Source: Medicago truncatula (Eukaryota > Streptophyta > Magnoliopsida > Fabales > Fabaceae). From it: a stretch of 64,000 nucleotides of DNA. Location of the stretch: positions 43,549,762 through 43,613,761 of the forward strand of contig NC_053042.1 in the NCBI RefSeq assembly GCF_003473485.1. Direction: 5' to 3'. The stretch's first letter is position 1. Each line of letters begins with the position of its first letter. The translations under genes and the position numbers were made by a program. Below are positions 5,221-62,169 of the stretch, piece after piece. The notes under the pieces were generated by a model. The model worked only from the letters and a program-made list of their open reading frames with translations. It made no database searches and was not told where the DNA came from.

Positions 5221-15864
<10,644 letters not shown>

Positions 15865-22400: not shown

Positions 22401-24261
22401 ATGGTTAGGGTTTTTTCTCCAAATTTATTTACATCTCATCGTTAATTCCTTTTCATTTCACGATTTCATTCAGGAATCTGCGTATTTATGAAATTAGGGT
22501 TTTCAAAATTTGGGATCTGGTTTCGTTTCCGTTGCATTATCTCATTTTGTTTTCGTTTGTGATTGCAGGATAGCCACGATTCAAACGATCCTAAGCAAAG
22601 CCCCGCTGATATGACCGCATTTGTAAGTTTTTCTTCGATTCTGCTATTTACTATTTCAGATCTTCGATGTCTCTGGTTATTATAATCTTATTAATCTTGC
22701 TATTTTACACTTCGATTCCGATATCATATTTCAATATCTATAATCAGAATAAGGGTAGCATAAAAATGATTTTGAACGAATTGATTCTGGCTAGTAATGA
22801 GTTCAAGGTAAATTGATTTATTTATGTTTGGTACACTAGTGGAAAAGTGAGGCTAAAAATCAATTATAGAATCTAAAAGCTCCAAACTCTAGCTCTAGTT
22901 AGAATCAATTTTGAAGGCAAAATCAATTTACGAGTACCCAAACAGGACTCCTCCAAAAGTGGAACTATACGCATACTAAGAAAATTTAAATTTTCAAATC
23001 TAATTATGTGTCGGTGTCCGGTCGGTGTTCAATTCCAATCAGGTGAACTAATTGAAGTGTCTATGCTGCATAGATCTGAGTGGAATATGCAAACTTTCAT
23101 GTACTTAGTTTCAGGATGATTTTAGTATTGATGTAAATGTCAATCAGTTTCTGACTTTGTCCATGCAACTGTTACTCTTTTCAGGTGCAAAATCTTCTTC
23201 AGCAGATGGTGAGTTGTATTGTCTAGAATCTTTGAGTTGCTTTACCAATTTTCAGAATATGTTTCCCTGCTGCTAACTAGATATTTTTTTTTGTTTGGCC
23301 AGCAAAGTAGGTTCCAGACCATGTCTGACTCCATTGTTACAAAGAATATCCTTTTGGCATTCTTTAATTTAATTAAGCTATTCTTTGAAACCAGCTTGCT
23401 AAGCAAAATAGTTTTTGAGTGGTGATTAATGCTTTTCAACATTTTTTTCTTACTCATGCGATAAGATTTTGTTTAAAGAGGGTAGTCTGCTCAGACGATA
23501 GTAGATCTTAACTGGCTTGCATTTTGTTAACTTATTCTGGGTTTATACCTAACGATATTTCTAATGATGACTTTTGGTATTTTAGTCAAGAATTTAAATG
23601 GAACCTTTGAAGTTTGGTTATTTGATGCCTAAATCATAGTCTATTATGTCTTGGCATCACTTTGCATTGTTTTATTTCTGTTTGCGCTGTTAACTTGCTA
23701 GTGATACAAATTTGTTTCTGTTTGTAATTCTAAGCCAAAGTCTACATTACCCACTAAAATTGTGTATGAACCCAAACCAATAATATGATGCATGTGTATG
23801 AAGGTAGAGATTTAATATACACGTTCACATGTCTGCATTAGTCACCTGATAGACTATGTTGTTGGGATAGTTATTGACATATCAATGGTTCAAACAGTAA
23901 TTAATTACTGCTGTGAACTTTTGTATCTTGTCATTTTTTCTGTAAACCCAATGCAATCGCCAATGAAGTTATGCATGATTTATTTCTCCATTTAGGGAAT
24001 TTTGTATTAGCCAAGTCATGATGGTCAGTGTTACTGATTTTATTATAATATGGGTATTATAGACTTGTCCAATACTCAAACTTTGAAAGTAATGCTTTTC
24101 TTGACACCAATGCACTTGATGATATGGGAAGTCGTATCAATGAGTTGGAGCAGAGCATCAATGACCTGAGAGCTGAGATGGGAGTGGAGAGCTCTCCATC
24201 ACCAGCAGCCCCCGAGAAGCCAAAGGAAGAAGAGTCGAAAAAAGAAGAGGGTTCAGATTAA
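22401..24261 (+). CDS. Heat shock factor-binding protein (HSBP), 89 aa
   Basis: Exons 22401-22403 (the ATG alone), 22569-22622, 23185-23208, 23303-23345 and 24116-24261 encode 89 residues. The protein runs MDSHDSNDPKQSPADMTAF, VQNLLQQMQSRFQTMSD, then a heptad-patterned stretch with RINELEQSINDLRAEMG, and a charged, proline-containing tail. This is the plant HSBP pattern, a small trimeric coiled-coil protein known to bind heat shock factors and damp the heat response. The usual length is 80-100 residues. The first three introns are GT-AG. The fourth, 23346-24115, is AT-AC with U12 signals, and only that choice keeps the family's conserved IVTKIDDMG reading frame. A TATA-like 'tttataaag' lies near 22283. 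The product is confident; partners are family knowledge. Confidence 0.93.
23346..24115 (+). other. U12-type AT-AC intron of HSBP
   Basis: The donor is ATATCCTTTT (23346-23355), matching the minor-spliceosome consensus. The branch-site match TTTTCTTGAC spans 24096-24105 with the branch A at 24104, eleven bases before the terminal AC (24114-24115). The intron is phase 1. No GT-AG pair nearby restores the frame. Confidence 0.9.
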
Positions 24262-42553: not shown

Positions 42554-44561
42554 ATGGATACATTGAAGAGCTATACTGGTGTCTGCTTCAGAGGATCCGG
42601 TTTTCCGGTTCATCCTTCCAATCTTACTACTAACAAAAACAGCAGGTTCATATTTTCCATTTTCTTTATTTTGAAATCTGAATGATTGAAGTGTATTTAT
42701 GAATGTTTATCGGATCTATTTTTGAACATTTTTTAGTTCTGTTTGATTTGTCTATATGCATGTAGATTGCAGCTGAATTTGATTTTGGAAGGAATGAAAA
42801 AAATGTGTCATTTGTGAAAATAATGAATTCGATGAAATAAACGGAGTTTCAAATGCAAATGTATGATTTTAATGATGATCTTCTTTGAGAGTACTATGTT
42901 TTTGCATTAAGAGTATAATTTAATTAAGGTTGATACATATGACTATTCATGTATGTTGTATGGACAAGATTTACATTAGAGTGTTTATCTTAGATTTTGT
43001 TGGCATGTATGAGGCCCGTGATTGATACTGATTGTGCTGGCTGTTGATTTTTTTTTTCTTTTCAATCTCTTACCATCAATCCATATTTTTGTTCGTCTGT
43101 GTTATTATTCAGGAACTCTTACTGGAGGCCTACACAAGCAGCTGTGAAATCCAATTTCCATCTCCCAATGCGAAGTTTTGAGATGAAAAATAGGTAGGTT
43201 GAATAATGAATTTACTGTTACAAATTCATTAGTTTTCATACTACAGCATAAAAAAACTAAGCTTTATTCCACTAAGTGGGGTTGGCATTAGTTTTCATAC
43301 TAAATTATATATTTTCCATTTGTTTTCATTTTACAATCTGATTTGTGATGAAACTTAGAGAGATTTAAACAATAGCTTCTTGCTTATTTCCACTAATTTG
43401 AGATTTTGTTTAGACATACAAGGTTGACCGTATCTTTAATCTGTGAAGTTATTTTACATGGATTTATATTTTCTTTATAAACTGCAACTGTACCGCTGCA
43501 TGTTTTAAAGAGCATATTTAAAAAGAGGTCTCACTTGCTTCTGGCGTCATGGTTGCCTATTTGTGTTGTTGCTTTTGTTTTAATCCTGGACTCACAAATT
43601 TTGGACTAATGAAGCTATATATTGTATTTACAGAACTTGTACTGAGGACATTAAGTGTCTGAGATTGATAACTGCCATTAAAACTCCATACCTACCTGAT
43701 GGTCGATTTGATCTTGAAGCTTACGATGCCTTGGTAAATATGCAGATCGAGAGTGGAGTTGAAGGTGTTATTGTTGGTGGCACAACTGGTGAAGGTCAAT
43801 TAATGAGCTGGGAAGAGCACATAATGCTTATTGCGCACACAGTTAATTGTTTTGGTGGGAAAATCAAGGTTATTGGAAATACTGGAAGTAACTCGACAAG
43901 GGAAGCAATTCATGCCACTGAGCAAGGTTTTGCGGTTGGAATGCATGGTGCCCTTCATATAAACCCTTACTATGGCAAAACCTCCTTGGATGGTATGGTT
44001 GCTCACTTTCAAAGTGTGCTTTCCATGGGACCCACGATCATATATAATGTGCCTTCACGAACTGGTCAAGACATTCCACCGCATGTAATTCAAAACTTAG
44101 CTCAAAATACTTGCTTGGCTGGTGTCAAGGAATGTGTGGGAAATGACCGGATCAAAGAGTATACTGATAATAGAATCGTTGTGTGGAGTGGGAACGATGA
44201 TCAATGCCATGATGCTAGATGGGGTTATGGAGCTACTGGAGTGATATCTGTTGCAAGCAATCTGATTCCTGGGTTAATGCGAGAACTCATGTTTGGGGGC
44301 AAAAATCCTACATTGAATTCTAAGCTCTTGCCTTTGATTGACTGGCTTTTCCACATGCCAAATCCCATTGGTTTGAACACGGCTCTTGCTCAGCTTGGAG
44401 TTGTCAGGCCAGTTTTCAGGCTGCCATTTGTACCTCTCCCTTTAGAGAAAAGAATAGAATTTGCCAATTTGGTGAAGGAAATTGGTCGTCAACATTTTGT
44501 TGGAACTGAAGACGTTCAGGTTCTTGATGACAACGACTTTTTCTTGGTTAGTCGATATTAA
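42554..44561 (+). CDS. 4-hydroxy-tetrahydrodipicolinate synthase (DHDPS), 366 aa
   Basis: Exons 42554-42645, 43113-43193 and 43634-44561 encode 366 residues. The enzyme (DapA type, EC 4.3.3.7) condenses pyruvate with aspartate semialdehyde, the committed step of lysine synthesis, in plastids. About 55 N-terminal residues rich in S, N, R and few acidic groups fit a transit peptide. The TIM-barrel core starts at [23 protein letters not shown] carries the threonine pair, NVPSRTG the active-site tyrosine just before it, and AGVKEC the Schiff-base lysine. [14 protein letters not shown] is the region that binds lysine for feedback inhibition and looks like the normal plant form. Length and splice pattern agree with plant DHDPS. 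Confidence 0.96.
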
Positions 44562-47176: not shown

Positions 47177-48271
47177 TTAATTAGGTATCATGGCAAGGAC
47201 TTCAGACCAAGCTGGTCTTGCAGTGATATCAGCCACCCAAGCACTAACATGAGGTCTTGATTCAAAAAGCTTCTTGCTTTGTGACTTCATCAAGTAATGA
47301 AGAGAAGGTAAATGATGCAAATCCACCAAGGTGAAAGAGTCACCTCCAAAGTATTTGGACTCAGACAATCTTTTCTCATACACATCAAGAATACTATCCA
47401 ACTTGGCTTCATTCTCTTCAACAATTTTTGGATCCAAAGGAATTCCAAATAAAGTCTTTATCCCCAATTCCCAAACAAGTTTTGATGCTACTTGATCAAA
47501 GTGATGGCTCTCCACTTCAGACCACACCCCCATTATTGCCAACTTCTTGGAGTCACTGCTTGTTAGCTTGGTCCCCTTATCAGCATACTCGTGATTAATA
47601 TATTGTGTTATGGCCCTTGACTCTGCATTTCAATTTATAATCAGTTCAATGCTCCTTAGTTTTGAATAAACTTCATATATGCATCAAATTCTATTCTATA
47701 AAGCACTCATGAACACTCGACATTTAAAAAATAACATTGACATGTCGACACCAATTTTTAATGTAAATGTTTTTATTCAATAAATTGTCCCATTTTATTT
47801 GTTTCAATTGCTTTAAAAAATAAAATATAAAATGTGGCCTAAGGCTATGGCCTTATTGACCTTGCCTTAGCCAGGACACTATGTATTGGTATCATATCGG
47901 ACATTAAACGATCTTCGATATAAAATGTTGAAGTGAATAAATCCACATATCTTACCAAAGAGCTTTAAATCTCCATCTTCAAAAGCTGGAACTTGACCAA
48001 ATGGCTGCATCATAAAGATTTAATGAGTTAGATAAATGTGGTTGGAAGAAGAAGGAAATTAATTTCAATTAATCCAAAATTAAAGTAAACTACTAGAATG
48101 ATATTTTGTGATATTGCTTACATTGAGTGATATGAACGGTTCCTTTTTGTGTTCTCCATTCCTCATGTTAATGTTAAAAAACTCAAACTCAATCTGCTTT
48201 TCATACAGAGTTGCAGTAACCCGCATGGTGGCCGTTGAGTAGGGACTTCCATGGACTTTTATTGTTGCCAT
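47177..48271 (-). CDS. Phi-class glutathione S-transferase, 214 aa (copy 1)
   Basis: Exons 48271-48122, 48004-47956 and 47622-47177 give 214 residues in the three-exon structure typical of plant phi GSTs. The enzyme conjugates glutathione to electrophiles or reduces peroxides in the cytosol. The thioredoxin-fold N domain has Ser12 in GSPYSTATMR as the likely catalytic serine, then PFGQVPAFEDGDLKLF and ESRAITQYI for glutathione binding. The helical C domain includes DSFTLVDLHHLP, the conserved phi-class block. It shares nearly all residues with the gene at 56555-57499, so the two are recent duplicates. An ocs/as-1-like element and a TATA box lie upstream. The substrate cannot be told from sequence. 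Confidence 0.95.
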
Positions 48272-48360
48272 GATTTACAAGATTAATCGATCACAAGATT
48301 AATTTATTGTTCTTAATTAACTTTGGTAAGTTGTAGAATTAAATGATAATAGCTTTGATG

Positions 48361-48410
48361 GTTATATAGTAAGATGGATAGATTGGAAAGTGCGTAAGAG
48401 CTGACGTGAA
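48361..48410 (-). promoter_or_regulatory. ocs/as-1-like element and TATA box of GST copy 1
   Basis: TGCGTAAGAGCTGACGTGA at 48391-48409 resembles the ocs/as-1 class (two TGACG-like half sites), which is known to drive stress-induced plant GST genes through TGA bZIP factors. A TATA box ('ctatataac' on the minus strand) lies at about 48361-48369, 90 bases upstream of the ATG. Confidence 0.6.
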
Positions 48411-49023
48411 AGAAGATTAGTATTAAACAATTGGAAGCTGGTAGCCCAATTCCATAAATGCTGAACAAAAAAATTAAAATACTACATTAGTACATTCACT
48501 CAGAACCAGGAAATCTCAAAAATCCTATGACGCATAGAAATACATCAGCAAAAATAAAGTGCTCCCACAGTTGGAGAACTAGCACATGTTTGTGGTGGGG
48601 TTTAGTTCAATTTTGTGTCGAAAACTATTTAATTCCAATAATAAAATATTGATTTTTTTCTAGTTATACCTTTAAAACATCAGGTTACATCCGAATTTGG
48701 ATAATATTTTATCACGGTACTAAAATAGTCCTTGATTCCATAATAATTTAATTTTCACCTCTTTCTCACACAAACATCAATATTGAAAAAGAAATGATAT
48801 TTGAACAACTATTTTATGATAATTTTTAGATAATTTTCTTCCTATACTTAAATTATGTACTTATATTCTCTTTGCCTCTTTCTTCAAATATCATTACTCT
48901 TATTGAAATGAAGACAAAAGTTCCTTTTAAAAAATTATTTAAGATGAACAAAGGAACATTATGTAAGGTTTCTAATTAAGTATAATTTTTTTCTCTCAAA
49001 AAAAAAATTAAGTACAATTTTTT
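48411..49023. other. Intergenic, no gene seen
   Basis: AT-rich sequence upstream of GST copy 1. Nothing recognisable beyond the promoter element described separately. Confidence 0.4.
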
Positions 49024-49480
49024 AGGGTTAAATATGTTTTAGGTCCCTATAAATATATCAAGTTTTTGTTTTCGTCCCTCTAAAATTTTCCTTCAACTTT
49101 TAATCCCTATAAAATTTTCAATCACTACTTTAGACCCTAGTTTTAAGTTAATTTTGTATTTTTCTTAATGAAATTGTGCACAAATGTGTAGAATATTGTA
49201 AAAAAAAATTCCAAAAAAATTAGAATTTTTTAACAAAACACAAATTAAATATAAATTTTTAACCGTCAAAGATATAAAAATTCATATTAAATTTTTGTTT
49301 TTTTTTTAAATTTTAATTTTTTTTGGGTGAGATTCTTATAATATTATGAATGTTTCAAAAGTATGAATTCTACATATGAGTTTACTTAAAAGGAGGGACC
49401 AAAAGTGAAGATGGAAATTGTTTTAGAGACTAGAACAAAAAGTTGACATATTTATAGGGACCAAAAACATATTTAACCTT
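49024..49480. mobile_element. Mutator-like MITE (same family as 2216-3100)
   Basis: The inverted ends 'agggttaaatatgttttagg' and, on the other strand, 'aaggttaaatatgtttttgg' are followed by 'ccctataaatata'. A partial duplication 'aattttt' lies at both sides. The length is 457 bp, close to the size of the outer MITE at 2216-3100 without its insert. Confidence 0.8.
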
Positions 49481-49499
49481 AATTTTTATTTTATTTTAT

Positions 49500-50980
49500 C
49501 GATATTCAAATGAATAAGCAATTAAAAGAATAAAAGTGAATTTTTGAGTGATTTTCTGTTTTTCATGTCATCAATATTCAATTAAAAGAATATGTATTGA
49601 ATTGAGATTTCAAAGGATTTTGATATACTTTTTATGATAAAAAAATCTTGTCGTATTGAATCAAGACTTTTATTAAATCTATATAAATCTTGTGGTATTC
49701 AATTAAGACTTTTTTTTTTAAGGCAGCCAAATCTGTTGGTATTCAATTAAGATTTCTAAGAACTTATAAAATGTCTTTTGGTATTGAAAATATGCAGATT
49801 TTAATGGATTCATTTGGGGAATGGATTGTGTGAGACTTTTTAGTTGAAATACACTCATCCAACAATCTCACACAAACTCTTGAGATTGTGTGATACTCTT
49901 CCAAATTCAATTTTTTTTTTGACGTTTCTTCAAAATTCTTTTCTGTTCTATACTATGACGATGGCAGGTTATATATTTTGTTTGGCAAACTTGCTTGTCG
50001 AAATCATCATGCCTCTGACTTGCACTTTTCTTAACAGAACTAGTTGCATTTTTCTACTTTATGTTCATTGACATTATAATAATTTTTCTACTTGCTTTTT
50101 TCTTCCTATAATAACATGCATTTTTCAATCAAATTATTATAATGAATAGACTTAACATAACTTATTTTAATGCATGTCTATTTATTTTGATATCATATGC
50201 CCATAATTTTTTTAAGATGAGGCAACCTGCTAGTAGTACTATATCATCTCATAGTCTATACGTTCATTGATTCATTGTTTTTTTCGGTCGATTTATATAT
50301 GTACTTTTGTTTTTGAGTTTTTTTGGCAATGATATATACATCTAATAGTATTATACCATACTGTATCTTTACATTTATTGATCCCTTTAAAATCTAAAAA
50401 ATTCATAAAGTCCTTTAAAATCTATATTATAAATCCATTAAAATTTTGCATTGAGAATCTTGATTGTAAAAAGTCTTTTAAAATCCCACAAAATCAATAC
50501 AATCCAACAAAGTCTTTTAAAATCTGCAAGATTTTTTCTATCAAAATAGTTTTTTAAAAGGTTTAAATGTATCATTGGTCTCTACACTTTCATCAGATTT
50601 TGGCATTGGTCCCTGCACTTTTTTTTGTTTGGCATTGGTCCCTGCACTTTGTAAAAATATTGGTATTGGTCCCTCTGTTAACTTTCGGTTAAAAAAAAAA
50701 CACAAAACTATTGGTATTGATCCCTGCACTTTGTAAAAATATTGATATTGGTGCCACGTGGCGTGAAATGATTGGGCCACGTGGCACTCCGTTGGTTTTA
50801 TGTTTTTTTTTTAACAGAAAGTTAACAGAGGGACCAATACCAATATTTTTACAAAGTGCAGGGATCAATGCCAAACAAAAAAAAGTGCAGGGACCAATGC
50901 CAAATCTGATGAAAGTGCAGGGACCAATGACACATTTAAACCTTTTTTAAAATACCAATCAAATACACCCGCCTAAAAGT
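49500..50980. repeat. Subrepeat-rich inverted-repeat region with nested MITE
   Basis: Left and right parts carry related units ('attgaattgagatttcaaa' versus 'cttttaaaatc' and 'attgatttt' in reverse) separated by an AT-rich core. This looks like an older inverted-repeat transposon split by the MITE at 50560-50942. Its outer limits are not certain. Confidence 0.4.
50560..50942. mobile_element. Mutator-like MITE with 10-bp direct flanks
   Basis: The inverted ends 'ggtttaaatgtatcattggt' and, on the other strand, 'ggtttaaatgtgtcattggt' enclose repeated 'ggtccctgcac' units. Direct repeats TTTTTTAAAA flank it at 50550-50559 and 50943-50952 (9-bp duplication plus one chance match, or 10 bp). The body has an inner palindrome around 'gccacgtggc'. 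Confidence 0.85.
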
Positions 50981-50999
50981 GAATTTTACATGAAATTAT

Positions 51000-52060
51000 T
51001 TGTCAAATCAAATTTTATCCATTCACGTATGGCATCTTATGAGTGTTGAAATATGGGTTTCGATTCACGTATGCATACGATTGCCATTTACGCTGTTAAT
51101 TTGCCATTGAATTCACTATTCAATTGGCAATTGAATTCAATACGAATTGGTATCACGAAGCAATTCATGTTTCTTCTTACAAGGGAAAAACATGATCAAA
51201 TTGATCTAATGTAAATTGCACTAAAATTGGATCGAATTTAATTTTTTTTATAAACACGAATTTTTTCTCTCCTGGTGTTGTAAGTGATTTGTTTTTTCAA
51301 ATGGTAGTTTCACATAAATCTATAACAAATTCTTTCGGTAGAAGACATAATCTTTTTTGGTACAAAGTAGAAGGCAAAATATATGATAAAATTCACTGAC
51401 CACAATTTATGCAAGTCTATTTAAAGAGAAGACTCTTGGTTGTATAACATATATATATATGTATGGAATTTAAATAAGCCCCATACATACTTTTTTTTTT
51501 TACAATAGCCCGATACATAGATAATAGCATACTAAAATAAATAAGCATTTAGATTGAATATATGCAATTGAAAGAGTTACATTTCTTGTCTCTATGTAAA
51601 GCTTTTCATGTCCCTTGGTGATATATATTAGTGGTTACATTTGCCAATTTAACTTTCATTTAATTTACTAGTTACAAATAATTCTTCGAAAGAAGATATG
51701 TTAAAACGACGGAATATTGTGATTCATCATAAAATATGTATGGGCTGGTTTCAAAGCATTATAAAGATTTGCTGTAGAAAAAGAGCATGTTCTATTTTGT
51801 TCAAGAGATTAGAAAAACAACATTATAATTAACATGATACTAATTTGAACCAATGAAGAAACCAACAATGTGCAGATTAACGTTACATACTAGTTAGGTT
51901 TATAAAAGAGACTCCAAGTGTCAAAGACTAACTAAAAAGAGACTTTTGCCAATATTTACATTAGACAAAATGAAAAGAACAAATGACATCCCAAAGTTAA
52001 GATAGTTTACGATTACAGTCCAAAGCGATACGTCAAAATAGTAGAAGTTCAAATAGTTCA
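51000..52060. other. Intergenic, no gene seen
   Basis: AT-rich; no coding sequence, RNA gene or bounded transposon was recognised. Confidence 0.4.
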
Positions 52061-52071
52061 GCAGCAAATAT

Positions 52072-53856
52072 CTACTTTAGAACAACTCGAACGTGCAAGT
52101 TCTTCGGTGACTTTTCGAGACCAAATATGAGCTTACCACCTTCTATCATTACACGTTCTCTGCAGAAATTGATCCATAGCCCACCCAAGTATTTTTCATA
52201 GCTTACTCTTTTGGCGATAATGAGGCAACACTTATACTTTCTCTGTATGCGAATATAGTTGCGTATAATTTATAAAATAAAGGTAGCTTAACTGATTTAA
52301 GCTAAAGAAAATGTATCATGACTTCTAATTTATCTTCCTATAAAGTCTAGATAAATACATGTATGTGCATTATATGAACCCGGTTGACCAATTAACATTG
52401 TTGAAACAAATGGAAATTAAGCATCACTCCCGCATGTGCATCTATAGCTAGCACCATTTGACATTGATGTATTCGAACATTTGGTGTAACTCTTATAATA
52501 CCATCCAAACTGGTTAGGATTGAATTTAGTTGTTTTTCAAATAGTGATGAAATATGTATCCTAACCCAAATTATGCACATGAAATAAAGAATAATGCAAT
52601 ATGTATTTTTAACTTGTGCATCAAAAAACTCAAAGCATGTTCGTGCATAAAAAAAACAGACCATGACTAAGTTTATAAATTCAGCAATTGGTCTAACCTG
52701 AGGCAGATTGAAAAAATCGTTGTACAAAGTACGTTGGGAAGAAACCGAACTCTAACTTAAGTTCTGACTGATACTTTGACTCTGAGCTTGAGAAGTGTTA
52801 AGGTCACGACAACAATTCAAGAAACATGGTCAAAAAACAATCAAATCAGATTGTGAAATAATAAGTTACTCTAATACTATATTTTGAAATCATAATGCAA
52901 ACTTACTAAGTCTTAAACTTCTCAACAACCGGATAATGTAGGTTGATGAGCAGCCTCGAACCTGATCAATTGTTACATATATTTAGGTTGCCAATGACTA
53001 CAAAATGGAAGCAAAGAACTCAAGGTAAATAGATGGTAAATGATCAAGCTACGAAGTATTTTTCTCATAGTGTTACATCAACTATATTCCCACTGCATAA
53101 GGAAAGACATCTTTCAGGTCATTATCAAACTTATACAAAATTCTATCATCTGATGTTGACAAATTAGAAAATAATATCTTTTATCTTTCAACACAATGTT
53201 CGTACACGGTTTCTTTCCAGTCCCAATTGGTGTTGTCTTGACAATCTCATGAAGATGTCCGATGATTTCTTAAAAAAATATTACATCTATAATAATATTA
53301 TAATCGGAGAAAACCATGAAATAAATTAAAGCACATAACTATATCATATAAAATGTCAGTTTTGAATTTTCCATCTTGAATTTCCTTAAATGACTTAAAA
53401 CGAAATTCATGAGTAAGAACGTTAGTTAACTTGTCATACTTCTGCACCTTTGTATCAGAACCAAAAACAATCTTAAAGAGATTAAATGCAATGTCATTAT
53501 CAAACACATGACAATTATACAAAGTATAAGTCTTGTTTTCCTCGATCAAAGCCTTCCAATGCTCCAATTCTCTATACCGAGTTATTACATGAACTCGATC
53601 ACCCTAAATTCGAGAAAGAAACCAAAAAATGTAAATAAATCAAAATGTACACTAATAAGTAACATTGATAAATCATAAAAGAAAATTACAACAAATCTTA
53701 ACTAACTCATCTAATTTTTGCATCACAAATAATGAGCTTCATATGTTGATTCTCATTACTACCATTTACAATCCAAGAATCCAGCACTCCAAATCCTATT
53801 TTCCAAATGTCCAAATCATTTTTTAGATCCTTAATGTAGTCATAATCCCTTGACAT
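52072..53856 (-). pseudogene. Broken RPA1-like / B3-like gene
   Basis: From the 5' end (53856): MSRDYDYIKDLKNDLDIWKI and MKLIICDAK; then from 53603 GDRVHVITRYRELEHWKALI, ENKTYTLYNCHVFDND and FRFKSFKEIQDGKFKTDILY; then EIIGHLHEIVKTTPIGTGKK near 53270-53190. These follow the OB folds of plant RPA70-like proteins (DUF223 type). Further down the same strand, 52550-52390 (LTSLDGIIRVTPNVRIHQ) and 52255-52072 (GGLWINFCRERVMIEGGK, LIFGLEKSP) resemble the two halves of a B3 domain. A codon in the RPA part expected to be Trp reads TGA (near 53063), and the donor after the first exon is not GT. It may be a decayed host gene or an RPA gene once carried by a Helitron. Confidence 0.55.
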
Positions 53857-54268
53857 CGAAAGTCCTATATAAAGATACAATAATACATCATTTAATTTTA
53901 TTCCCTTTGTTCATTCTGATATCGAAAGAAGCTAACATATTTCTATGTGATCAGTTTTTGTATCATCAAATCAACCTGATCTTAAATGCACAAATTTCTG
54001 AATCATCAACTTTTTGGACCTCAATGATATGACCAAAACAAATTTCATCAATCAACTTTTGTACGGCTCAATCATATAGGAAAGAATAAACTAAATATGA
54101 AAATTGTTATGGCTTTATGATTACTCACAAAAACTAAAATAACTCACATACATCAATTTTTTTTAACTATAGTACCAGAAGCTAAAATAACAACTTTGTC
54201 AAAACCTTATCATGAGCTAAAATTCAATCATCATGATTTATCAATGTTACTTATTAGTGTACATTTTG
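53641..54268. repeat. 36-bp perfect inverted repeat, arms 628 bp apart end to end
   Basis: The arm at 53641-53676 ('caaaatgtacactaataagt' and onward) is exactly the reverse complement of 54233-54268. The 556-bp spacer contains the first exon of the broken RPA-like gene. No inverted sequence extends beyond the arms. It could be the ends of a small transposon or the trace of an inverted duplication. Confidence 0.9.
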
Positions 54269-54399
54269 GTGTCTTTCAAAAAGATAAGAATTTATATTAT
54301 ATGATATTATATTTGTTACATTATTGGTGCCATGGAAACATATATGTTTAGTTTTTTCGAATAAGAAAAAGATATGCATAGTTTGTTACAATATAAGGG

Positions 54400-54466
<67 letters not shown>

Positions 54467-55132
54467 TATAATATTTCTAGGCATCTAGACCTTTTTTGAA
54501 GATAAGACATCTACAATTTTACTTTTAATTAAAATCAAAATTTTATAAAAACAATCATATGCATTATGCAACGTCAAAAAAAATTATACGCAGTAGCGTA
54601 ACAAAAAAACAGACACATAAAGTATTACTCTAAGCGCTAATATGTGTGTTCGTATATATTTGCGAGGTTGAAGAAAGAAAATAAAAATATTTGATATCAT
54701 TAAATGACAGTGTGAATAAAAATATTTGTGAGGTTGTGATGATTAAACGATATTGAATTTAAATGTATAAGTGATAAAAAGATAATAAAATTCCTTTGAA
54801 AAAAAGGTAATAAAATTAAATGGAACCTCCTTACAAAAAATTAAATGGAACGATTCCAAAAAAAAATTAAATGGAAGAAAAAATCATATTGAAATATAAT
54901 ATTAAAAATAAAAGAAAAGGTTCCCAGTGTGAGTTGAAAAGATGTGCTTTTGAAATAAATTGTCGAGAATTAACATTCAACAACTTTTGGCTAAAGCTCA
55001 TTCCATTCAATTTTATGCATTAAAAAAAATTACTTTTTGTAGTAAGTACTTAATTGATATTGTGTTTGTGTTTGACCTAACTTCTCCTTAAAAATGTACA
55101 AAAGTTGGAAGAAAGTCGGGTCAAGCGATACC
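54269..55132. mobile_element. Inverted-repeat DNA element, copy B (left-truncated)
   Basis: This segment matches 20971-21754 of copy A through 'aaaagataagaatttatat', 'gtttgttacaatataa', 'gtagcgtaac' and 'cattccattcaa' blocks. The right end 'gggtcaagcgatacc' corresponds to 'gggccaaacggtacc'. The left third is missing. An (AT)28 tract has expanded inside at 54409-54464. Confidence 0.6.
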
Positions 55133-55199
55133 TTATTCTCCTACAACGGCAATGTAGAAGCAACTGAATTTGGGAGAAAAAATTAAAAAATAATTAAAA

Positions 55200-55855
55200 A
55201 CATAAAAATTGGAAATAAAATATTTGGTATCATTTAATGACAGCGTGAATAAAAATATTTGTGGAGTTGTGATGATTAAACAATATTGAAATTAAATATA
55301 TAATCGATAAAAAGATAATAAAATTAAATGGAACATCCTTAAAAAATTAAATGAAATGGTTCAAAAAAAAAGTTAAATGGAAGAAAAAAAACATATTGAA
55401 ATATAATATTAAACAATAAATGAAAAGGTTTCCAGCGTGAGTTAAAAAGAGGTGCTTGTGAAATAAATTGTCGAGAAGTAGTTTTTTAAAGTAACATTCA
55501 ACAACTTTTGGCCAAAGCTCATTCCATTCAATTTTATGCATTCAAAAAAATTACTTTTTTTTAGTAAGTAAACGGCGTGAGTTAAAAAGAGGTGCTTGTG
55601 AAATAAATTGTCGAGAAGTAGTTTTTTAAAGTAACATTCAACAATTTTTGGCCAAAGCTCATTCCATTCAATTTTATGCATTCAAAAAAATTACTTTTTT
55701 TTAGTAAGTAATTAATTGATACTATGTTTGACCTAACTTCTCCTTAAAAATGTAGAAAAGTTGGAAAAAAACCGGGTCAAGCGATACCTTAATCTTCTAC
55801 AACGGCAATGTAGAAGCAACTGAATTTGGGATAAAAAATTGAAGAATAGTTAAAG
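55200..55855. repeat. Tandem re-duplication of copy B, with inner 140-bp tandem repeat
   Basis: The second half of copy B plus its right flank ('ctacaacggcaatgtagaag') is repeated directly downstream, ending again in 'gggtcaagcgatacc' at 55788. Inside it, a 140-bp unit starting 'gcgtgagttaaaaagaggtg' occurs twice in tandem (55435 and 55575). Frames of 64 and 79 codons on the minus strand are by-products. Confidence 0.8.
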
Positions 55856-56554
55856 TTATCAAAAATAAAAAAATTATAAAATAATTAAAAAAAAGTGAGG
55901 GGCAAAATGGGAAATGCACCCATATAATGATGAGGTGGCAACAACACAATTCCACCAATTAGAAAATTACAAAAATACCCCTCCTAAGGGCAAAATGGAA
56001 AATTTATAGGGCATCAACTTTAATAGTAGTATATAGATTGTAAAACTTTCTTCCTCCTAGAGATGCCACATCATCATAATTCTAGCTTAACATACAACCA
56101 AAGTTAGTTTACAAAGATGTTAATCTAGAGATGCCACATCATCAAGTTTGCTTTATAATGATCAACCAACAATTATGTGTGGGCAGGGGATCAACAATTA
56201 TGTGTTGGGATTCAAATGGTAGTTTCACATGAGCTAAATAAATTATATGTATACGAGAGGTAATTAATCCATATACTCATTGTCTTATATAGTTTTGGAT
56301 GGAGAATTATGTTGAAGCTCCCAACACTCTTCTATATACTTTTACTTGTAATAATTTTAGAAATAAAATCCTATAACAAATTGAGTTTGCCATATATTAA
56401 AACAAACAAAAACACTAGTTATTATTTCCTCCATTAAAAAAAAAGTTATTATTTCCATTGCAACATACATGGAAAATGAAAAATTAGGAGATAGCACACA
56501 CAAAAAAGTTGCTTAAACCATAAAACAACACCCAAATATCCCAAAAAAAAGGTC
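55856..56554. other. Intergenic, transposon debris
   Basis: AT-rich debris ending in 'ttaatagtagtatatagat' near 56019-56037, a sequence style seen at transposon ends. No gene. The last part is the 3' UTR side of GST copy 2. Confidence 0.35.
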
Positions 56555-57499
56555 TTAATTAGGTATCATGGCAAGGACTTTAGACCAAGCTGGTCTTGCA
56601 GTGATATCAGCCACCCAAGCACTAACATAAGGTCTTGATTCAAACAATTTCTTGCTCTGTGACTTCATCAAGTAATAAAGGGAGGGTAAGTGATGCAGAT
56701 CCACCAAGGTGAAAGAGTCACCTCCCAAGTATTTAGATTTAGACAATCTTTTCTCATACACATCAAGAATGATATCCAACTTGGCTTCATTCTCTTCCAC
56801 AACATTTGAATCCAAAGGAATTCCAAATAAAGTCTTTATCCCCAATTCCCAAACAAGTATTGATGCTACTTGATCGTAGTGTAGGCTTTCCACTTCAGAC
56901 CACACACTCATTATTGCCATCTTCTTGGAGTCACTGCTTGTTAACTTAGTCCCCTTATCAGCATACTCATGATCAATATATTGTGTTATCGCCCTTGACT
57001 CTGCATTTCAATTTTTAATTAGTTTATATATACAACAAATTCTATGAAGTACTCGCACAAATATTAGACATCAAATAAAAATAATTGAATATAACCACAT
57101 GTGTTTGATATCGTGTCAGACATCAAATACATCTTTAATCTAAAGTGTCAAGTGCTACATATATCATATTCAAATAAATTTTACCAAAGAGTTTTAAATC
57201 TCCATCTTCAAAAGCTGGAACTTGACCAAATGGCTGAAACATAAAGATTTAATTAATTAGTTGGATCAATGTAATTGGAACAAGAAGGAAAATTTCAATT
57301 CATAATTAAAGTAAACTAGCAGAATGATCTATATTTTTATGTTGCTTACATTGAGTGATATGAAGGGTTCCTTTTTGTGTTCACCATTCCTCATGTTAAT
57401 GCTTACAAACTCAAATTCAAGCTCCTTTTCATACAAAGTTGCAGTAACCCGCATGGTGGCCGTTGAGATAGGGCTTCCGTGCACTTTTATTGTTGCCAT
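56555..57499 (-). CDS. Phi-class glutathione S-transferase, 214 aa (copy 2)
   Basis: Exons 57499-57350, 57233-57185 and 57000-56555 give 214 residues with exon lengths identical to copy 1 (150, 49 and 446). Ser12 lies in GSPISTATMR; PFGQVPAFEDGDLKLF and DSFTLVDLHHLP are kept. Differences from copy 1 are scattered substitutions, for example EKELEFEFVSINM against EKQIEFEFFNINM, with no gap. Introns are shorter than or similar to those of copy 1 and also related. The gene is intact. It lies about 8.3 kb from copy 1 on the same strand, with repeats and a broken RPA-like gene between them. Confidence 0.95.
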
Positions 57500-57593
57500 G
57501 ATTTTGCAGATATGTATGTAGTATGGTGTATAGCTCTTAATTTACTATGGTATTTTGTAGAATTAAATGACAATAGGTAGATGGTTATATAGC

Positions 57594-57641
57594 ATGTAGA
57601 GGGTGGTTATATTGAAAAAAATGCGTAAGAGCTGACGTGAA
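57594..57641 (-). promoter_or_regulatory. ocs/as-1-like element and TATA box of GST copy 2
   Basis: TGCGTAAGAGCTGACGTGA at 57622-57640 is identical to the element upstream of copy 1, at almost the same distance from the ATG (about 123 against 120 bases). A TATA box ('ctatataac' on the minus strand) lies near 57594-57602. Confidence 0.6.
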
Positions 57642-57934
57642 AGATATGTTAAAGCTGGTAGTCCCATGCCACAAATAATGCTCTTTGACCAAGGTTGACA
57701 AATTGATCGTTAGGTATTCAATTTAACTTGAGTGATACATCAAAAAGTGAAATTTGTCACAAAATAAATGAAAAATTCAAATATTAATGTAATGAAAAAA
57801 TATATTAAACTCTAAAATTCAAAATAAATAAAAAATGTTATACCATGGGTGATATAATTTATTTTTTTCTTTTTAATATATATATATATATATATATTTT
57901 AATATTACATTCATCGCTCTAAATTCATATATTC

Positions 57935-58018
57935 AACTTTTTTTTGTGAGGATGTATTCAAATTTGTACTAATTTCAACTTTTTTTTGTGAGGATGTATT
58001 CAAATTTGTACTAATAGC
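57935..58018. repeat. 42-bp tandem duplication
   Basis: The unit 'ttcaacttttttttgtgagg' plus 22 further bases occurs twice in a row. In the minus frame it gives a repeated 14-residue block, which is not taken as a gene. Confidence 0.85.
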
Positions 58019-58079
58019 AATAATGAATATATCAATAGAATAATTTTGTATTATATCTAATTTGGCATTTATATATATA

Positions 58080-58851
58080 GAGGAGGGATATTTTGACTCC
58101 AAGAGTAACTCAAAAGAGTTACTCCACATCCCCACCATTAGTTTTATCTTAATCTAATGGACTATATTTATGTCTTATTAATAATCATGTGCATCATCAT
58201 ACTTGATCATTCTAACAATATTTAATTTTCCTTTTTCATACTCAATCAACATTTATGTTTTATTAACACAATTTTTTTTGGTCAAGATATTGAGACGATC
58301 AGTTATTGTTTTGAAGTATATATATATATATATATATATATTTGAAGGAAATATTTTTAAAGATATAAATTGATAAAAAATAATTAATACAAATATATCG
58401 ATACTTTTTTCTTTAAAAAAAGTAAATATTTTTAAAATTTTTATTTTATCAGTGTATTAAAAAAGTTGTATTTAAATATAAGTGTAATGTTTTGTCCAAA
58501 AAAAAAAGTGTGATGTTTTTTACCAGCATGAGTTTTTTTTTTAGGAACGTTAATCATAGTTTAATATTTTTTTTTGACAAATCATAGTTTAATATTTGAA
58601 ATTTGTTAATAAAAACATTTGATGAAACATAAAAATAATTTCTTGTTACCAATTATTAATTGTGTTAATGAAACATAAATGTTGATTGAAAGCAAAAAAA
58701 GGAAACCTATTATTGTTAAAATGATCAAGAATGGTGAGACACATGATTATTGATAAGACTTAAATGTAATCCATTAGATTAAAATAAAATTAAAGGTGGA
58801 GATGTGGAGTAACTCCTTAGAGCTACTCTTGGAGTCAATATATCCCTCCCC
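58080..58851. mobile_element. Inverted-repeat element inside an (AT)n array, copy 1
   Basis: The ends 'gaggagggatattttgactc' and, on the other strand, 'ggggagggatatattgactc' begin inverted repeats of roughly 150-200 bp ('gttgattgagtatgaaa'-type text on both sides). The element is bordered by TA repeats: short on the left, about 27 bp on the right. Its interior is AT-rich and non-coding. The embedding in TA repeats recalls the rice Micron elements, which lie in (TA)n microsatellites. Confidence 0.7.
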
Positions 58852-58878
58852 TATATATATATATATATATATATATAT

Positions 58879-59521
58879 GAGGGGAGATATATTTTGACTC
58901 CAAGAGTAAGTTTGTCTCCTTACTCCAAATCTTAGCCTTTAATTCTATAATTAGCTAATGATTTAGATTGATTAATAATAAGTGATACAATAAGCTTTAA
59001 TTTTCTTTTCTATTGAAGTTAACACTCATCATTTCAAAATGGAAAAACAATTAATGCAATTTAATTGGTTGTTTTTTTTAAGGATAATTGGTTGTTTTTT
59101 TTATTCTTGTTCCTTTTTTTTTATACACAAAAAATAAACACGGCAAGGAAAAATATAATATAGTTAAATTTTTAAATAATTGTTTTTTTTGGTTGGTAAT
59201 TCAATAGTAAAAGATTGAGTGCTTGTAAGAGAAAAGAAAGTCATGACAAACATAGAAAAAGCATATGTGTAAAAGAAAAAAAAAACATAATTGAATAACA
59301 ATTTTTAAGTCCCATATGCCAAGGAGGTGAATGAAAAAAAAATAATCAATTAAAATCATTAATTATTTTATGGTGATGAGTGTTTAACTACAATAGAGAA
59401 TAAAATTAAAGTCCATCACATCAATTATTATGAATCAATCTAAATCATTAATTAATATTAGAGTTAAAGGTCAAGATTTGGAGTAAGTTAATAGACTTAC
59501 TCTTGGAGTCAAAATATCCCA

Positions 59522-59523
<2 letters not shown>
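58879..59523. mobile_element. Inverted-repeat element inside an (AT)n array, copy 2
   Basis: The ends 'gaggggagatatattttgac' and, on the other strand, 'ggtgggatattttgactcc' are closely related to copy 1. Inverted 'ccaagagtaag' and 'gatttagattgat' blocks follow. The left border is the TA array shared with copy 1 and the right border is a 50-bp TA array (59523-59573). The internal sequence differs from copy 1 apart from the ends. Confidence 0.7.
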
Positions 59524-59573
<50 letters not shown>

Positions 59574-59589
<16 letters not shown>

Positions 59590-61030
59590 ATTATGAGTAA
59601 AATGGTTAATACATTATCCATTGTGTAGTGGAGGAAGTGCCTCACACCCTAAAAAAGTAGTTAAACTCATTTAGTTTTCTTAAAGTAATAACCAATTTGG
59701 TCCATGAGAGGTTAAATCACTAATTTGGTCCATGAAATTATAAGTTCGAGTTATCTTGATTCCTAGAATTTGTCAATTAACAGCAAAAAGAAAAGGTGGA
59801 CTTAAATTGCTTGACGTCATTCAGTTTGAATATTTTTTTAACAGCAAAATTTATTAATAATCAAATCTTTCTCAACACAAGACAAACAAAAACTAGGAGA
59901 CAGTAACTATAAAAAACAGACACATATATAAACGAAACATCCAAAAGAAAATCATAACACCACCAATAGAAAGACCATATAAATTTAGGGCTATCACCGG
60001 AAATCTAACCACAAAAATCAAAGTGAACACTTGAATCAAAGTCAAACCTTCACACTTGTCGCTAATGACCATGTAAACAAAAGCCAATCACTTATCTACG
60101 GCTATTAACCATTATCCCTAAAAAAAATCAAAATATTTTGTAAGGGTGGTATGACAAGTTCACATATATTCAAACTCAATGTCATGTCTTAGGAACTACT
60201 AAAAATAAAATTATTGAGATTGTCTTGTGATTTTTAAGGATAAAGACTTCAATGGTTATTTTTTTCCTCAACATATTTGTATTTAGTCTCAAAATTAAAC
60301 TTCCAAATTTTTAGTGGTGGTGAATCTGTAGTCCTGTAAATTTTAAGAAAGGATATGATTAGAGGGAGGTCTTCATTTGTAAAGGATAGACAAATTATTA
60401 ACTTTTCTATGAATTGTAATTTTTTCCGGACACATGATTAGAGGGTGGTAAACACAGTCTATTTATTTTGAAATAAAACAATTGAGTGAAATTAAGATAT
60501 CCTATTTCAAAGGAAAGTTTATGCTCTGAAAGTTGTGTTTGACTGGACCACATCGGTGATAGTTTATTGGATTTTTCTCTGTATTCTGCTTTGTCATGTG
60601 AATCTATAATTTTATTTGATCTATACACTTATAAAATCATGACTTTATTTTTCCAATGCCATAAAAATATACTCTACTAGTCACTACACTAATTTTAACT
60701 TTTCGATGCAAGGTTGGAGCTGGATATAGGTTTGGTTGGAAAAAATAATAATAATTCAACTGACATCATTCATAACACGTTGCCCATTTTCTAAAGTGTT
60801 TATTACATTCTAATCTTGGTGAGTATAAAATGTAATGCATGTACTGTTTTATTGCAGTGGCAGGGAAATCAAATGCGACACACAGTTTTTACCTTGATTT
60901 CATGCAAATAATATAGTATAGGTTAAAATTTTGGCATGGCATAGATATACGACAAATTCAAGTCTTTACACAGTCAAATTTCAAGTTTAGTGTCCAAGAT
61001 CTCTTCATAAATGCTAGCTTCACTCACTCT
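59574..61030. other. Intergenic, no gene seen
   Basis: The minus frames at 59893-60087 and 60407-60628 show no recognisable motif. The segment 59820-60110 may be the end of a dispersed repeat. The region close to 61067 is the promoter of GST copy 3; no ocs/as-1-like element like that of copies 1 and 2 was found there. Confidence 0.4.
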
Positions 61031-61067
61031 CTTACTCACAGTTTTGTTGTAGAAAACTAATATCACT

Positions 61068-62169
61068 ATGGCACTCAAGATTTATGGTCTGGCCATGTCC
61101 ACAAACACTACTCGTGCCATGATCTGTCTACATGAAAAAGAAGTAGATTTTGAGCTTATTCCAGTCAATGTGTTTACTTCTGAGCATAAACAACCTCCTT
61201 TTCTCAACAAGAACGTAAGTAAAAAAGCACTTCTAGCTAGCTTATATATATATATCTTCAGCACTATACTTTTCTTTTCTTAATCACATACTACTTTTTC
61301 TTTGTTCATGCAGCCCTTTGGTTTGATTCCAGTACTTGAAGATGATGATCTCACCCTCTTTGGTATGCTTTCTTTTTTTCTTTTTCAGTTGATACATTTT
61401 TTCACTCTGCATCACCCTTTAAGTTTATTCGAAAAATATACTTTGATGCGCGCTTTCATATTTATAATCAAGCAAATACTACTAGGAAAAAAATATTTAT
61501 TTTATGTAATTTCTGCGCGCGAAGTGACTCTGAAATTTGAGAATTTTTGTCCTCTAACTTTTGTTACTAATTCAAAATTTTCCAATCTAGACCACTAATC
61601 ATGCATGCATCATGTCAGATAAGTTGATATTGTTCTGTTTCATTTTTTTAACCTGTAATGATATATAACCTTTTTTATGTGACTATGGACTATACAAAAA
61701 AGAGTCAAGAGCCATAACCTCATATGTAGCTGAAAAATACAAGGAAGTTGGACCTGATTTGATTAGGCACAATGACACAAAAGAAGCTTCATTGGTCAAA
61801 ATGTGGACAGAGGTAGAGTCTCACTACTATGACCCTGCAGTCACACCGATTATCTATGAATACTTTGTGGCTCCATTTCAAGGCCAAGAACCAAACAAGT
61901 CAGTGATTGAAAGTAACATTGAGAAGCTGAAGATTGTGCTTGATGTGTATGAAACCAAGCTAAGCACAACAAAGTACCTTGCAGGGGATTTTTATAGTCT
62001 TGCTGATCTTAGCCATATATCTTCAACTCACTATTTTATGCAAACCCCTTGTGCTTCAATGATCAATGAAAGGATTCATGTTAAGGCTTGGTGGGAAGAT
62101 ATATCTTCTAGGACTGCTTTCCAAAAAGTTGTGGGAGGTATGACTTTTGGTCAGAGTGATCAAAAATGA
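61068..62169 (+). CDS. Phi-class glutathione S-transferase, 220 aa (copy 3)
   Basis: Exons 61068-61214, 61314-61362 and 61703-62169 give 220 residues in the same three-exon arrangement as copies 1 and 2, including the 49-nt middle exon. The likely catalytic serine is Ser11 in GLAMSTNTTRA. PFGLIPVLEDDDLTLF and ESRAITSYV form the glutathione site, and DFYSLADLSHIS replaces the DSFTLVDLHHLP block. The sequence is much more diverged from copies 1 and 2 than they are from each other. The third exon uses an acceptor after 'tacaaaaaag', which keeps the ESRAIT frame. The gene looks intact. It converges with the ATG18-like gene; the stop codons are about 215 bases apart. Confidence 0.94.

Follow-up and report, generated by a model that had tools for sequence, protein, structure and literature searches.

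Evidence for a minor-class (U12-type) AT-AC intron in a Medicago truncatula HSBP gene

Introduction

Introns of the U12 type are a rare class that makes up less than 0.5% of all introns (PMC2831892, PMC10639083), and about 230 Arabidopsis genes have been counted as carrying one (PMC5853960). The share of U12-type introns with AT-AC ends is given as 22-26% in soybean, Arabidopsis, and rice and as 13% in maize (PMC7367187). In a comparison of human and Arabidopsis, the positions of U12-type introns were conserved more often than those of U2-type introns (PMC2426677). The published donor consensus of the class is ATATCCTT, and the branch-site motif given in the same source is TCCTTAAC (PMC2831892). 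In human cells, splicing of minor introns with AT-AN ends is reportedly promoted by the factor CENATAC (PMC8280824). Among the proteins related to the one described here, Arabidopsis HSBP has been reported to bind heat shock factors and to dampen them (PMC12582567).

Here we describe the intron at 23346-24115 on the plus strand of a 64,000-nucleotide stretch of the Medicago truncatula genome, hereafter the window. We conclude, with a probability of roughly 0.94, that it truly belongs to the minor class as a U12-type AT-AC intron in phase 1, the last of four in an HSBP gene. As in known A-type U12 introns, the donor consensus ATATCCTT(T) is matched by ATATCCTTTT in both HSBP gene copies of this genome, and a branch site near TCCTTRAC, a short distance from branch to intron end, and a terminal AC are all common to the class and to the window intron. 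Nothing qualitative sets the window intron apart from these introns, although its branch site has one mismatch and its predicted pairing with U12 is weak. Introns of the U12-type AT-AC kind are well known, and the HSBP intron adds a member to them. HSBP was not named as a host of a U12-type intron in the papers that we searched, and PMC2426677, PMC7367187, PMC10639083, PMC2831892, PMC8280824, PMC4892727, PMC5853960, and PMC6717393 contain the term "HSBP" 0 times in their main texts. The HSBP AT-AC intron may well be present already in U12 catalogues.

The HSBP gene and its product

The HSBP gene spans 22401-24261 on the plus strand of the window and has five exons, which when joined yield 270 nt encoding 89 residues and a stop. 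The coding part of exon 1 (22401..22403) consists of the start codon ATG alone. It is followed by intron 1 (22404-22568, GT-AG), exon 2 (22569..22622, DSHDSNDPKQSPADMTAF), intron 2 (22623-23184, GT-AG), exon 3 (23185..23208, VQNLLQQM), intron 3 (23209-23302, GT-AG), and exon 4 (23303..23345), which contains QSRFQTMSDSIVTK and opens the next codon with a single base. Intron 4, the AT-AC intron, is 770 nt long (23346..24115), and exon 5 (24116..24261), whose first codon takes its initial base from the end of exon 4, reads IDDMGSRINELEQSINDLRAEMGVE... to the stop TAA.

The encoded protein matches the Pfam HSBP1 family (PF06825) with an E value of 3.6e-24 and a score of 84.8 bits (cut-off 28.6), and the match covers profile positions 2-49 of 51. 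It also matches the solved core of human HSBP1 (chain 3ci9) with an E value of 5.8e-12. The HSBP1 coiled-coil domain is thus common to the window protein and to the family members human HSBP1, Arabidopsis HSBP (At4g15802), and rice OsHSBP1. The description of OsHSBP1 includes a coding exon 5 (PMC12922113), which agrees with the five exons of the window gene. We also looked for HSBP relatives in viral contigs and in prokaryotic genome contigs. N-terminal patterns, which were poorly chosen, gave 27 viral and 11 prokaryotic matches, and core patterns gave 411 and 138, respectively, none of which was confirmed as a relative.

Splice signals of the last intron

The initial annotation had proposed a U12-type donor, a branch-site match, and a distance of 11 nt from the branch A to the terminal AC, and the coordinates of all three are exact in the window sequence. 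The 5′ splice site (23346..23355, plus strand) reads ATATCCTTTT and the branch site (24096..24105, plus strand) reads TTTTCTTGAC, with the branch A at 24104. The 3′ end of the intron reads ...TTTTCTTGACACCAATGCAC, and its terminal AC, read from the sequence, occupies 24114..24115 of the plus strand, so that the 11 nt run from 24104 to 24115. U12 branch sites have the consensus TTCCTTRAC, and their branch A lies some 9-15 nt before the intron end; the 9-mer of the window intron, TTTCTTGAC, has one mismatch to it.

At the donor, 6 nt are complementary to the 5′ end of U11, and the 7 nt from +4 to +10 (TCCTTTT) are exactly complementary to AAAAGGA in the U6atac of this genome. The predicted duplex between donor and U11 is -7.5 kcal/mol, as compared with -3.2, -0.8, and -2.0 for introns 1-3; among 3000 16-mers that start with AT, 85 match the energy of the donor. 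For the last 30 nt of the intron, the predicted duplex with U12 is -5.7 kcal/mol, and since 550 of 3000 random AC-ending 30-mers equal or better this value, the U12 pairing of the window copy is not significant. The same duplex computed for the GT-AG introns 1-3 of the gene gave -5.5, -7.2, and -3.9, that of intron 2 being stronger than that of intron 4.

AT-AC ends alone do not settle the class of an intron (PMC2831892), and the intron could in principle be removed by the major (U2) spliceosome, like some sodium-channel introns. We find this extremely improbable. The U2-type AT-AC introns of sodium channels are described as carrying a G at +5 (PMC2831892), whereas the donor here has C at both +5 and +6, and it is on this difference that a U2-type AT-AC intron was rejected. 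The donor and the branch site also fit the U12 consensus in both HSBP paralogues. Of the 12 bases preceding the terminal dinucleotide, 6 are pyrimidines, versus 7, 10, and 9 in introns 1-3, so that the lack of a polypyrimidine tract is a weak contrast.

The conserved protein and the choice of junction

We examined how often such motifs occur. Genome-wide, the donor ATATCCTTTT is found 4150 times on both strands, versus 3748 times for a reversed control pattern. Over the two strands of the window taken together, RTATCC[TC]T has 9 occurrences, 25 ends in AC or AG are preceded at 9-15 nt by a branch-like 9-mer, and a loose scan for donor, branch, and terminus yielded 4 pairs, two of them with the donor at 23346. 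Taken by themselves, with no junction set by the protein, these motifs carry little weight. At the junction that the protein does fix, the product of the donor and acceptor rates is ~1.4e-8, using the rates of the window and taking the factors as independent.

The junction was assessed by joining every donor from 23303 to 23419 to every acceptor from 23420 to 24199, whatever the termini. K-[IVL]D[DE]M is obtained with three pairs. The family residue I results only from the AT-AC pair 23346/24115, in which joining 23345 to 24116 makes the codon A/TT (Ile; the slash marks the junction), and the remaining two pairs (GA-GC and AA-CA) give L. Among all the pairs tried, the AT-AC pair alone rebuilds the conserved VTK-IDDM. 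The initial annotation had stated that the reading frame is kept only with this choice. This wording is too strong, because an open frame is also kept by 34 GT-AG and 21 GC-AG pairs (donors to 23459, introns of ~60 nt or more); what stands is that the conserved protein is obtained only from 23346/24115.

These open-frame pairs could speak for splicing of HSBP at GT-AG or GC-AG sites in this region to produce a different protein. In seven of them both SIVT and DMGSR survive, but the protein grows by 19 to 42 residues (108-131 versus 89); the others lose SIVT, DMGSR, or both. Each alters the coiled-coil region. The alternatives were rejected as the conserved VTK-IDDM is never rebuilt, and we assign them a probability close to nil given also that the paralogue described below retains AT-AC ends and that its retrocopy fixes that junction.

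A diverged paralogue with the same intron

A protein search of the 430-Mb genome found two further HSBP places besides the window copy. The first, near C7:51.26 Mb, is a five-exon gene encoding 88 residues that has a dN of 0.08 and a dS of 0.70 relative to the window HSBP. Its exon 1 has the same ATG/GT layout, its exon 3 is identical to that of the window gene at 24 of 24 nt, and its intron 4 is a 667-nt AT-AC intron located at the same codon and in the same phase, with junctions that read AAAGA/ATATCCTTTT...TTCTCCTTGACTCCATTGCAC/TTGACG. The expectation that the intron position is conserved between homologues is therefore borne out within this genome.

Similarity between the two introns is concentrated at their ends. 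The donors are identical at 10 of 10 nt and the last 25 nt at 20 of 25, versus 8/30 and 11/30 identities (ungapped) in the adjoining 30-nt stretches. Random pairs of 25-mers drawn from both introns have a mean of 7.2 identities, and none of 20000 pairs reaches 20. Using blastn between the introns, we found only matches of at most 28 nt with E values of 0.06 or worse, and the interior is not alignable. The kept ends together with the unalignable interior indicate that the interior diverged while the U12 signals were retained.

The two copies differ in their branch sites, TTTCTTGAC in the window and CTCCTTGAC in C7. The predicted U12 pairing of the C7 copy is -10.8 kcal/mol, which 21 of 3000 random AC-ending 30-mers equal or better, as compared with the -5.7 kcal/mol of the window copy. 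Such a difference would be expected if the branch site of the window copy were weakened, with its intron mostly retained or poorly spliced and the C7 copy supplying most HSBP. We consider this unlikely. The coding sequence of the window copy is intact and the pair is under constraint, as seen from the dN and dS values; moreover, each of the branch sites has a single mismatch to TTCCTTRAC, and the duplex energies are crude.

As for the origin of the pair, the two window neighbors that were tried, the DHDPS-like ORF and the ORF of the AAA-ATPase region, have no match near C7:51.26 Mb. An origin of the HSBP pair by whole-genome duplication is thus not supported.

An intronless retrocopy of the paralogue

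The other HSBP place, at C1:7152630-7152876 on the minus strand, lacks all four introns and has an in-frame stop. It aligns to the spliced C7 mRNA from the 5′ UTR to the 3′ UTR with 383 of 479 columns identical (80%) and to the spliced window mRNA with 78% identity over 254 columns, and resembles the C7 gene more closely than it does the window gene. It looks like a processed pseudogene, a fossil cDNA of the C7 copy; no target-site duplication of at least 7 nt flanks it in the stretch searched. At the junction of intron 4, the retrocopy reads AAAGA/TAGACGAAATG and the spliced C7 copy AAAGA/TTGACGAAATG. The sequences around this junction, AAAGATAGACGAAATG in the retrocopy and AAAGATTGACGAAATG in the spliced C7 mRNA, are of equal length and differ by one substitution, which sits two bases past the junction. 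Since the retrocopy keeps the spliced junction, transcripts of the C7 copy were apparently spliced at the AT-AC site in the germline. This points to use of the AT-AC junction from evidence at the DNA level, which is indirect for the window copy.

The motif alone leaves room for a chance match, which the pinned junction rules out together with the paralogue and its retrocopy. The initial identification of the HSBP intron as a U12-type AT-AC intron therefore holds, and membership in the U12 class is well supported by the sequence signals, the uniquely pinned junction, the intron shared with the diverged paralogue, and the intronless retrocopy of that paralogue. The best-supported reading is that of an ordinary U12-type AT-AC intron that would be taken out by the minor spliceosome.

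Minor-spliceosome components in the genome

We searched the genome for the RNA components of the minor spliceosome using Rfam models. For U11, all 8 of the matches listed are over the gathering score (40 of 49028 candidates scored), as are both matches for U12 (44 of 36544 candidates scored) and 7 of 8 for U6atac (46 of 25768 candidates scored). For U4atac there were 0 matches among the 49 of 27282 candidates scored, a result in which the controls were silent too and which does not imply absence. The upstream element TCCCACATCG, which we take to be the plant snRNA promoter element, was found in the 90-100 bases upstream of one of the five U11 copies whose upstream side was examined (L022), of the one U12 copy examined (L031), and of three of the six U6atac copies examined (L032, L033, and L034).

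CENATAC-like matches (PF14968) were found at 7 loci, including L052-L055 and L057 at C2:19844250-19886608 and L056 at C3:48937381-48939491. Five of the loci form a tandem array with a 4.9-kb period and 99.2-99.7% identity, one further locus lies ~20 kb before the array, and stretches of 3.8-4.3 kb in the C3 copy show ~97-98% identity. The array is either a recent amplification of this AT-AN-linked factor or an effect of the assembly.

Potential consequences for HSBP expression

On the basis of known minor-spliceosome biology, U11 would recognize the donor ATATCCTTTT and U12 would recognize the branch site TTTTCTTGAC. U6atac would then displace U11, with TCCTTTT pairing with AAAAGGA, and ligation of the ends would create the Ile codon A/TT within the coiled coil. 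CENATAC-type factors would be expected to assist this AT-AC splicing. If the intron were retained, translation would reach the first in-frame stop, a TGA at 23423..23425 (plus strand), after 26 non-native residues following VTK (read by eye), and HSBP would lose the second half of its coiled coil. Because retention would truncate the coiled coil, HSBP can be expected to depend to some degree on the minor spliceosome. We infer that HSBP output would depend on minor-spliceosome efficiency, as the initial annotation had suggested, from the general need of such introns for that machinery.

If HSBP needs the removal of this intron, attenuation of the heat shock response in the plant would hang on a second, rarer splicing machine. 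Heat tolerance would then be tied to minor-spliceosome mutants in a concrete way that can be measured, and the paralogue pair, with the same intron and differing branch sites, offers a natural comparison within one plant.

A further idea is that the AT-AC intron acts within the feedback loop of the heat shock response as an inbuilt delay or sensor, with the window copy, which has the weaker branch site, as the more sensitive paralogue. Heat or stress would alter minor-spliceosome activity and thereby set the speed at which HSBP returns and heat shock factors are shut off. The abundance of U6atac has been described as stress-regulated and limiting for genes with minor introns, its level being tied to the stress kinase p38MAPK in cells (PMC3728624). 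The window HSBP resembles the genes of this U6atac switch model in having one minor intron among major ones and in being stress-related (PMC3728624); however, the p38MAPK link comes from cells, whereas the HSBP gene is known here from its sequence. No link between heat stress and minor splicing in plants was found in the literature searched, and we regard a delay or sensor role as very unlikely.

Other features of the window

A second, probable U12-type intron, of the GT-AG subtype, was observed at 13269-13081 on the minus strand of the window. It is 189 nt long and reads HAY/GTATCCTTCA...TTCCTTAGCATGAAACTCAG/IFQLL, and it lies directly upstream of an ORF at 12388-13026 (minus strand) that has no Pfam match. 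An AAA+ lid domain is located further along the same strand, at 6568-6975. Two paralogues, L041 (C1, ~18 kb away) and L042 (C3), have GTATCCTTTA and GTATCCTTTT, respectively, after a matching Tyr codon.

Downstream of HSBP, a DHDPS-family ORF at 43665-44561 on the plus strand has a 95% identical copy at C7:34.88 Mb, a much higher similarity than that within the HSBP pair. Four copies with 65-73% identity lie on C8. Finally, the region 47177-62169 contains three ORFs that resemble GST C-terminal domains, two by Pfam and the one at 56555-56920 because it resembles the first. Together they suggest a cluster of glutathione S-transferase genes.
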